Positions 41,331 through 47,667 of a stretch of DNA of 64,000 bases are shown here, one piece after another. The stretch is from positions 124,001 to 188,000 of the forward strand of contig JAJEIE010000029.1 of assembly GCA_022827625.1 (NCBI GenBank), read 5' to 3'. Source of the stretch: Candidatus Poribacteria bacterium. Its GTDB lineage: Bacteria > Poribacteria > WGA-4E > WGA-3G. Each line of letters opens with the position of its first letter. The first letter of the stretch is position 1. Below the pieces are notes generated by a model, which saw only the letters and a program-made list of their open reading frames with translations, was not told where the DNA came from and made no database searches. The translations under genes and the position numbers were made by a program.

Positions 41331-41690
41331 TTAGTTAGCGACTTGCGCAGTGAAACCTACATCTGTAACCGCTTTCACGAGCGCGTCTTTTTCAACCTTG
41401 CCCTTCTCAATCTTCACAACAGCCTTATTCTCATCCATAGAAACACTGACAACCTCAGAGACACCGGTAACCTTTGTGAGTGCATCCTGCACCTTACTGG
41501 TACACGCGCCTCATGTCATGCCGGTTACAGCCAGCGTTACTTCTTCAACGGCGACTTCTGCCGTCTGACTCGGTGTTTCTGCCGTCTGGCTTGGTGTTTC
41601 TGTTGTCTTCTTTTGTGTGTCCGCACACGCAACCACGAGCAGCAGCACTGCAAGGCAGACAAATACGATTCTCGCGTTTAAGTGAAGCAT
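41331..41690 (-). CDS. Probable selenoprotein: HMA-domain lipoprotein, copy A
   Basis: 119 residues if the in-frame TGA at 41511-41513 is read as selenocysteine (residue 60). The signal peptide ends in the lipobox LLVVAC. A Thr/Pro/Glu linker (with a repeated TPSQTAE) leads into a heavy-metal-associated (HMA) domain, LAVTGMT-Sec-GACTSKVQDAL, then VTGVSEVVSVSMDENKAVVK to VGFTAQVAN and TAA. In the family the site is GMTCxxC, which binds soft metals; here the first Cys is replaced by Sec and Cys63 is kept. The frame is maintained with full domain homology after the TGA. A hairpin at 41479-41493 is the candidate SECIS. GAGAGG precedes the ATG. Confidence 0.85.
41479..41493 (-). promoter_or_regulatory. 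Candidate bacterial SECIS hairpin of HMA copy A
   Basis: On the mRNA, GGTGCA and TGCACT flank a GGA triloop. The stem runs from +18 to +32 after the UGA, with the first loop G at +24. This lies within the 16-37 base window known for bacterial SECIS elements, which carry a conserved G at the start of a small apical loop. Confidence 0.6.
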
Positions 41691-41807: not shown

Positions 41808-42200
41808 TTATTGGGCGGCTTCGGCACTGAAACCAGCACCTTTAACCGCAGTGGTAAGAGCGTCAGTTGTAACTTTGCCCTTCTCGACCTTCACAACAGC
41901 CGTATTCGTGTCTGAAGAGACGCTCACCACTTCAGAAACGCCTGTAACCTTGCTAAGTGCAGCCTGCACTTTACCGGTACACGCGCCTCATGTCATGCCT
42001 GTGACATTCAGTGTGATCTCTTCAACGGCGGCTTGCTCCATGTCTCCCGCCATGGCCTCTGCTTCAGCTTCCATTACGGCTTTGCCCGTGGAAGTAGTCG
42101 CAGCAGTTTCGGTCATTTCTGCTTTCTTCCCGATCATGCCACACCCGACCATGAATGCAAAGGCGACCAGACAAATCAGCGATAATTTCGCTATACGCAT
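41808..42200 (-). CDS. Probable selenoprotein: HMA-domain lipoprotein, copy B
   Basis: 130 residues with the TGA at 41988-41990 read as selenocysteine (residue 71). The lipobox is FMVGC, followed by an Ala/Glu/Met-rich linker and the HMA domain LNVTGMT-Sec-GACTGKVQAAL, VTGVSEVVSVSSDTNTAVVK and GAGFSAEAAQ before TAA. It is a paralogue of copy A: the domains match nearly throughout, while the linkers differ. Cys74 is retained as the second metal or redox ligand. AAGGAGG precedes the ATG. A TTGCCA/TAAAAT promoter lies upstream. A role in periplasmic metal binding or redox at the membrane is inference. Confidence 0.85.
41955..41971 (-). promoter_or_regulatory. Candidate bacterial SECIS hairpin of HMA copy B
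   Basis: AAGTGCA and TGCACTT form a perfect 7-bp stem with a GGC triloop, at +17 to +33 after the UGA and first loop G at +24. Position and loop match the hairpin of copy A. Confidence 0.65.
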
Positions 42201-45710: not shown

Positions 45711-47029
45711 TGTCATCGAAGAAACCGAACATTGTCGTTTATTTGTCCGATGACCACGGCTGGGAATATCTCGGTTGTTACGGGAATGAACATATCCAAA
45801 CGCCACACTTGGACAGCCTCGCGGAAGAAGGTATGCGTTTTATGTCCGCCTTCACACCGACCCCGACGTGTGCGCCATCCCGTTCTACGCTCTATACTGG
45901 ACTTTACCCAGCGCGTCACGGTGCTATGGGGAATCATACAGAGTGCCACGCGCATCTCAAAACCTTACCCAGTATGCTTCGAGAACTCGGCTACCGCGTC
46001 GCAATTGCAGGAAAAACGCACGTCAAACCAGAAACCCTTTTCGACTTTGAATACATCGGTGGGTTTCTCCCAAAGCGTACCGAGCATCACCGGAAATATA
46101 GGGCAGAAGGACTTGATACGGAACCTGTCGGACGGTTTCTTTCAAGCCATCAACAAGAAAACCCAGATCAACCTATCTGCCTTATCCTCGGCGACAGCAA
46201 CCCACATGTCACATGGGAACCAAACAAGATTTATGACCCGGATGCCTTGCCCCTACCGCCCTATATTGCCGACACACCGATTGCTCGCAAGGCACTTGCT
46301 AACTATTATCAGGATATTACGACGATGGATACCCGCATCGGCGAAATCGACAAAATGTTGGAAACACACGGGTATTCGGACAATACGCTCTTCATTTACA
46401 CAACCGACCACGGTTCCGAGTGGCCCCACTGTAAATGGACGCTGTATGACACCGGCATTCGTCTACCGTTCCTCGCCAAATGGCACGGCGAGATTCCAGC
46501 GGCGACTGTCTCCGATGCAATGATTTCGCACGTCGATTTCCTACCGACGCTCATAGATATCGCCGGTGGCAACCCCCCAGATAGTTTAGACGGTAGAAGT
46601 TTTAAGGAAGTTCTGCTCGGGCAGAAAGGAACCTTCCGCGACAAAATCTACGGCACGCATACCCGCGACGGAAATATGAACGTTTTTCCGCAGCGTTGCG
46701 TCCGCGATCGTCAATACAAATACATCTTGAACCTGATGTCTGAAAACAGATGGACAACGCATTTCACTGAGGTTGAAGGTATCCCAGAGAGTCACGCTGA
46801 AGTATGGAAGAGTTGGGTCGAAAAAGCCGAGATCGACCCGCAAACCGCACAACTCGTTTATCTCACACAACACCATCCAGTGGAAGAATTATACGATGTA
46901 ACGGTCGATCCATACGAGTTCAATAACTTAGCCTTCAATACAGATATGCGTCCAACGCTCGAAAAGATGCGTGCAAACGTTCGCGACTGGATGCATTTAC
47001 AAAACGATGCAGGGAGACGAGAAACATGA
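45710..47029 (+). CDS. Sulfatase of the alkaline phosphatase superfamily (FGly type)
   Basis: 439 residues. Metal ligand Asp pair SDDHGW (14-15), the formylglycine motif CAPSR at 54-58 (CxPSR, modified by FGE or anSME), the AGKTHVKPE segment and TTDHGSEWPHC confirm an arylsulfatase-type enzyme. There is no signal peptide, so it is probably cytoplasmic. It removes sulfate from sugars or aryl esters. Its stop overlaps the ATG of the selenoprotein by 4 bases and its start overlaps the previous gene: one operon with the dioxygenase, selenoprotein, isomerase and esterase. Confidence 0.9.
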   Translation: MSSKKPNIVVYLSDDHGWEYLGCYGNEHIQTPHLDSLAEEGMRFMSAFTPTPTCAPSRSTLYTGLYPARHGAMGNHTECHAHLKTLPSMLRELGYRVAIAGKTHVKPETLFDFEYIGGFLPKRTEHHRKYRAEGLDTEPVGRFLSSHQQENPDQPICLILGDSNPHVTWEPNKIYDPDALPLPPYIADTPIARKALANYYQDITTMDTRIGEIDKMLETHGYSDNTLFIYTTDHGSEWPHCKWTLYDTGIRLPFLAKWHGEIPAATVSDAMISHVDFLPTLIDIAGGNPPDSLDGRSFKEVLLGQKGTFRDKIYGTHTRDGNMNVFPQRCVRDRQYKYILNLMSENRWTTHFTEVEGIPESHAEVWKSWVEKAEIDPQTAQLVYLTQHHPVEELYDVTVDPYEFNNLAFNTDMRPTLEKMRANVRDWMHLQNDAGRRET

Positions 47030-47667
47030 AATTCAAACTGATTGATAACCATTACATAAACTTGAGATCGCTGTTTTCGCGGAAGGTTAGTTTAGTAAGC
47101 CTCTCATTTTTCTTAAGTGCTATCATTTTCCTATGCCTCGCCTGCGATAACGCTGAACGGACGACACAAATTATAACCACACCAGAGGAGGGTGCTGAAC
47201 AACTCCCGTCGGGCGAAGGACTGGATATCGGTGCACTCGCGCCGGATTTCGCGCTGCCAGATAGCGAAGGAAACACCCATAACCTTTCACAGTATCTCGG
47301 ACAAACACTCGTCATCGTTTTCTACCGGACTGGTACATGAGCCAACTGTCGCGCGCAGCTCGGCGAGTTGCAAACCGGTTATGAAGATATCCGAACCGAA
47401 GGTGCTGCATTGATTGCTATCAGTGCCGATCCCCTGACGGTTGTCGATTCAACACGAAAGAGTTTGGAAATTACATATCCGCTGCTCGTGGATAAAGATA
47501 GGAAAGTAATTGCTGCTTACAACGTTATTGACCCAAGCGACCCAGATATTGCCCGTCCAGCGACCTACATTATTAATCAGGAGGGTCGGGTCGCATCAAA
47601 ATTCTTGGATAATCTTGGAGGTCGTGTCGGGCCCGACCATATTCTCGCAGAACTGAATGAATTATAA
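47026..47667 (+). CDS. Probable selenoprotein: peroxiredoxin/thioredoxin-like lipoprotein
   Basis: 213 residues with the in-frame TGA at 47338-47340 read as selenocysteine (residue 105). A basic N-terminus, hydrophobic stretch and lipobox FLCLAC give a lipoprotein. The AhpC/TSA-type domain starts IGALAPDFALPDSEGNTHNL and runs to VIVFYRTGT-Sec-ANCRAQLGELQ; the rest (ADPLTVVDSTRKSLEITYPLLVDKD, PATYIINQEGRVA) continues the fold to TAA. A Sec-x-x-Cys pair replaces Cys-x-x-Cys at the thiol-peroxidase or thioredoxin-like site. The candidate SECIS is at 47355-47371. It overlaps the sulfatase stop by 4 bases. Confidence 0.87.
47355..47371 (+). promoter_or_regulatory. Candidate bacterial SECIS hairpin in the peroxiredoxin-like gene
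   Basis: GCAGCTC pairs with GAGTTGC (one G-U) around a GGC triloop, at +15 to +31 after the UGA; the first loop G is at +22. The loop sequence equals that of HMA copy B and is closely like copy A. Confidence 0.6.

Follow-up and report, generated by a model that had tools for sequence, protein, structure and literature searches.

Two tandem genes of a Candidatus Poribacteria genome, here called copies A and B, probably encode selenoproteins, namely exported lipoproteins with a heavy-metal-associated (HMA) domain in which a Sec-Cys pair most likely serves to bind a soft metal. Both genes appear to encode a lipoprotein signal followed by an HMA domain with a Sec-x-x-Cys motif. Read-through of the UGA, coding constraint, a SECIS-type hairpin, the Sec machinery, the HMA fold and the lipobox Cys are all well supported by the sequence analysis; that the cell inserts Sec, that the two proteins are exported and bind a metal, which metal this is and what physiological role they play is inferred.

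Copy A is located on the minus strand of the window (the whole stretch of 64,000 nucleotides that was analysed) at positions 41331-41690 and, with its TGA read as U, forms a single frame of 119 residues, MLHLNARIVFVCLAVLLLVVAC...GMTUGACTSKV...QVAN, closed by a TAA at 41331-41333. The initial annotation had placed an in-frame TGA at the first metal-binding position of an HMA domain continuing in frame to a TAA. This frame is present exactly as claimed, with the TGA at 41511-41513 (minus strand; read as Sec, residue 60, U60), and the read-through product matches the Pfam HMA family. Copy B is the tandem sister just upstream (41808-42200, minus strand; 130 residues, TAA at 41808-41810) and carries the GMTUGAC motif as well, its TGA at 41988-41990 (minus strand) being read as Sec at residue 71 (U71). 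The pattern GGNATGACNTGANGNNNNTG has 2 matches in the window versus 0.00 expected from 100 shuffles. Stops closing open frames of at least 250 codons in the window are TAA (22), TGA (10) and TAG (10); TGA thus serves as an ordinary stop elsewhere in the window and the genetic code is therefore not reassigned.

The read-through products of copies A and B score 39 and 40.9 bits, respectively, against the Pfam HMA profile PF00403, for a gathering score of 24.8. An AlphaFold2 model of copy A, built with Cys in place of Sec, displays an HMA core with pLDDT above 90 and a poorly defined N-terminus. Its top match in the PDB is MerP (1osd), with a TM of 0.93 of target and 40% identity; domains of copper ATPases and copper chaperones rank next. 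With profile scores above the gathering score and a ferredoxin-like fold, both copies belong to the HMA family. As judged by eye, they also have a hydrophobic N-terminus and a lipobox Cys that is invariant in 36 relatives. The corresponding codon of copy A (residue 22) lies at 41625-41627 on the minus strand and lipidation of this Cys is predicted, while the lipobox of copy B, FMVGC, is non-canonical and weaker than that of copy A.

Homologues support the assignment of the TGA as a coding position. Indeed, the motif GGNATGACNTGANGNNNNTGY is found in 70 of the 85 genomes of the phylum, for 3 matches with the reversed control, and a profile built from the genome's own three copies matches mostly frames with exactly one TGA. 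Among 253 distinct HMA stretches from the fetched loci, 164 have TGA and 82 have TGT or TGC as first-ligand codon, counts that overstate independence, the sequences of the set being related by descent; the other 7 are misaligned or have no first-ligand position. Wherever this column is aligned, it contains TGA or Cys only, and never Trp or Gly. The second ligand is a Cys in 163 TGA copies, all from Poribacteria. At one locus of Bacterium HR08 (L120), an HMA domain has a TGA at both ligands (UxxU), with Cys-Cys HMA domains in the same locus. In a tree of 189 domains, based on a short alignment and with many forks unresolved, 5 changes of the Sec/Cys label are needed, and well-supported branches force at least 3 of them.

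Downstream of the TGA, the genes of the lipoprotein group show a pS of 0.473 and a pN of 0.126 (ratio 0.27); of the 93 short genes, 47 reach their next stop 59 codons past the TGA and 29 reach it after 60. The stretch past the TGA is therefore under purifying selection, and a decaying tail is strongly disfavoured. Standard gene calling ends at the TGA, and one could argue accordingly that it is a true stop, the genes being pseudogenes or the outcome of sequencing errors and a short lipopeptide the sole product. This is exceedingly improbable, as 70 of the phylum's 85 genomes conserve the TGA, both tandem genes have it, and the 59-60 codons past it are under purifying selection. A sequencing error, which the initial annotation had named as a possible refutation, is very unlikely, since many independent Poribacteria genomes, some of them assembled as a single contig, have a TGA at this position too. 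The pseudogene and sequencing-error readings were thus rejected on the recurrence of the TGA across genomes, the TGA/Cys column and the selection acting after the TGA. Two further observations concern neighbouring or related frames. At four loci (L163, L165, L166 and L167), a conserved 167-codon frame adjoins the Sec-HMA pair, with an HMA-like start (DVTLSVTGMT) that continues as RFTSTF... without the ligand Cys residues. In a same-class genome (L021), a Sec-HMA copy has an in-frame TAG within the hairpin (GTGTAGTCTGCAC) and is perhaps a decayed copy.

A hairpin of SECIS type follows each TGA of the pair, at 41480-41492 in copy A (GTGCA-GGA-TGCAC) and at 41957-41969 in copy B (GTGCA-GGC-TGCAC), both on the minus strand. 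A scan of the locus with Rfam returned no family at or above its gathering score, and the hairpin was therefore examined by comparison. Measured from the UGA's first base, the stem GTGCA/TGCAC begins at a distance of 21 nt. Every one of the 163 Sec copies from Poribacteria uses GTG for the Val at +21 and GCA for the Ala at +30, giving GTGC/GCAC, although GTG and GCA make up only 17% of Val codons and 33% of Ala codons, respectively, in the larger genes of the window; the hairpin played no part in the searches that gathered the loci. The four-pair stem is found in 6 of 82 Cys copies overall and in 2 of the 10 poribacterial rows, and when the same peptides are recoded synonymously, the stem arises in 8% of the recodings. 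One position further in, 144 copies pair A-T, 5 pair G-C and 2 pair G-T, which is a compensatory change of limited extent; 12 copies have no such pair. The triloop is GGA, GGC, GTC or GGG in 162 of the 163 Sec copies. Loop, stem and spacing agree with the bacterial SECIS model (PMC13188914) in 163 of 163 copies. Furthermore, TGA-N18-GTGCRGNNNGCAC occurs 3 times in the whole source genome, each time in a Sec-HMA gene (reversed control, 1).

Single-sequence folding over 57 nt is ambiguous (z of -1.94 for copy A and 0.11 for copy B), for which reason codon-level conservation and RNAalifold were used; the latter, applied to 150 distinct sequences, yields this hairpin, of 6 bp, as its single consensus structure. 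The hairpin-enforced energy over 54 nt is at or below -7.5 in 99% of the copies. Copy A is the weaker of the two by energy, its 25-nt hairpin core alone reaching only -6.2 kcal/mol and its free RNA fold favouring a different structure by 2.3 kcal/mol; the minimum-energy fold of copy B includes the hairpin.

The source genome, that of a marine-sponge bacterium (5.0 Mb, 95% complete) whose closest named relatives are Candidatus Poribacteria MAGs with identities of up to 99%, encodes a tRNA-Sec (78 bits, gathering score 47) with a TCA anticodon, an adjoining selB gene (TIGR00475, 348 bits), selA (595 bits) and selD (362 bits), the latter itself with an in-frame TGA. After this TGA, a hairpin GCTCC-GGG-GGAGC was spotted by eye on the minus strand of selD (L017). 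An assignment as selenoprotein calls for an in-frame TGA with homologues having Cys at the site, and for SelA, SelB, SelD and tRNA-Sec within one genome, and both are found here. The three refuting conditions named in the initial annotation were examined and its reading withstood them: the sel genes are all present, a sequencing error is very unlikely, and homologues conserve U or C at the TGA with purifying selection on the coding sequence downstream. An invariant bacterial-type hairpin was found as well. Co-occurrence of the motif with selA is uninformative, as selA is above its cut-off in 60 of 70 motif-positive and in 12 of 15 motif-negative genomes. In an earlier study, SelA and SelB were found to co-occur in most sponge-symbiont bins, across several phyla, and to be absent from most related references (PMC5649159). 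The Sec at the UGA being a prediction from sequence, the codon might also be read as another residue, by a near-cognate tRNA-Trp or a suppressor tRNA, which would produce a mix of truncated and extended lipoprotein without selenium. We consider this very unlikely, because homologues carry Cys and never Trp or Gly at the site, selA, selB, selD and tRNA-Sec are all present, each UGA has its SECIS-type hairpin, and TGA is a normal stop elsewhere.

Sec-HMA domains occur in three architectures. The first consists of tandem lipoprotein pairs, such as copies A and B, flanked by a gene for a PhyH-like dioxygenase and by a UvrC-like gene, an order kept in many genomes of the family. The second, of about 530 residues, has a PSCyt1 cytochrome domain and WD40 repeats and ends in a Sec-HMA domain at its C-terminus. 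It is found in most genomes of the family, and the copy of the source genome (L003:115-1713) has the hairpin motif; in two genomes of another family of the same order (L215 and L216), a frame of similar length to this cytochrome-WD40 protein has Cys. The third is made of 3 or 4 Sec-HMA domains followed by 1-2 Cys-HMA domains (L172, L164, L174, L170 and L171). In these chains every TGA has its own hairpin and the hairpin is broken in most Cys domains, which provides a control within one gene.

No metal transporter, sensor or mer gene adjoins the pair, either among its neighbours in the window or in related genomes, and the metal-handling role is consequently a proposal drawn from the fold and the motif. 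A single clear heavy-metal P-type ATPase is encoded in the source genome, its HMA domain being of the ordinary Cys-Cys type, along with one CopZ-like protein that lacks a signal sequence (L004). The window also contains a gene for a peroxiredoxin/thioredoxin-like lipoprotein (47026-47667, plus strand) with an in-frame TGA at 47338-47340 (FYRTGT-U-ANC). Its syntenic copies in four related genomes (L219, L220, L221 and L224) have RTGTU, two more distant ones (L229 and L231) have a TGA at the same site, and by its sequence this gene is a second selenoprotein type in the window.

With both copies still taken as selenoproteins, the Sec-Cys pair could act by redox chemistry, either in selenenylsulfide/thiol exchange or in the removal of peroxide, and not in metal binding. 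UxxC occurs commonly as a redox motif in selenoproteins (PMC13188914), the Sec-containing peroxiredoxin-like lipoprotein lies about 5 kb off and is a neighbour of the pair in related genomes too, and one of the Sec-HMA architectures has a cytochrome c domain. We nevertheless regard a redox function as rather unlikely, since the fold is that of HMA and not thioredoxin-like, the conserved GMT-U/C-xxC loop is a metal-binding loop, and arrays of 3-4 domains would look less like enzymes than like chains that relay or buffer metal.

Soft-metal capture or transfer, whether on the external side of the cytoplasmic membrane or in the outer one, is thus the likeliest function suggested by the HMA fold and the invariant lipobox Cys. 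In the mechanism that we propose, selenocysteine would replace the first Cys of MxCxxC in small exported lipoproteins with one HMA domain, SelB and tRNA-Sec decoding the UGA under the guidance of the hairpin within the coding sequence. The signal sequence and lipobox would then put the HMA domain outside the cytoplasmic membrane, where the Sec-Cys pair would most likely bind one of the soft metals, namely Cu(I), Hg(II), Ag(I) or Cd(II). The bound ion could be buffered or handed on, as is done by MerP and CopZ with Cys-Cys. It is conceivable, albeit with somewhat less than even chances in our estimate, that Poribacteria possess a phylum-wide, selenium-based system of envelope metal capture formed by the lipoprotein pairs, the cytochrome c-WD40-Sec-HMA proteins and the 3-4-domain chains.

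The Sec-HMA proteins are a concrete candidate use of the Sec machinery in Poribacteria and would have Sec placed in a carrier-type domain outside the cytoplasm. If true, the phylum-wide system would amount to extracytoplasmic selenocysteine-based metal handling, with more Sec per chain than the 2-3 of prokaryotic families in a 2026 review, according to which most of the 119 families have one Sec and a small subset 2-3 (PMC13188914). Natural Sec and Cys versions, sometimes within one chain, make selenium versus sulfur as metal ligand directly testable. Standard annotation would probably cut short or omit these genes. No description of selenoproteins from Poribacteria was found in the open-licence literature, an earlier description elsewhere being possible, and the main text of a large-scale selenoprotein prediction paper mentions neither HMA, copper nor Poribacteria (PMC12013277).

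Selenocysteine in HMA-type proteins has precedents. A MerP-type selenoprotein was listed in an earlier ocean survey (PMC2398784), and the current list of 119 prokaryotic selenoprotein families includes the UxxU family NF041115 and a UxxC cation ATPase (PMC13188914). NF041115, a UxxU metal-binding (seleno)protein also termed "putative mercuric reductase" selenoprotein, is HMA-type and has Sec at the first ligand like copies A and B, but it has Sec at both ligands, whereas our copies have UxxC together with a lipoprotein signal and score 58.5 and 46.2 bits for a cut-off of 95. The cation-transporting P-type ATPase selenoprotein (TIGR01525, PMC13188914), compared by its listed motif, shares UxxC in a metal-handling protein; it is a membrane pump, whereas copies A and B are small lipoproteins without a pump. 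The MerT/CopZ fusion-like heavy metal transport selenoprotein NF045683 similarly has an HMA-type tail but is a membrane protein, and the copies, at 44.1 and 42.2 bits, fall far under its cut-off of 375. MerP (TIGR02052; PDB 1osd, 1afi) has an extracytoplasmic HMA domain as well, but is a soluble Cys-Cys protein of the mer operon, unlike our Sec-Cys proteins with a lipoprotein signal, which, at 47.4 and 46.9 bits, stay under its cut-off of 92.55. Membership of the pair in a mer system was rejected, mer genes being absent among its neighbours. The CopZ family metallochaperone (NF047957) shares the fold and the GMTCxxC-type loop and, of the NCBIfam models, gives both copies their highest scores (61.9 and 53.6 bits, under the cut-off of 85); CopZ is, however, cytosolic and Cys-Cys, in contrast to the Sec-Cys pair and lipoprotein signal of copies A and B. 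As both copies are below the cut-off of every NCBIfam model and Sec in metal-handling proteins is already on record, the Sec-Cys HMA lipoprotein is a variant of these precedents and not a new kind of selenoprotein.
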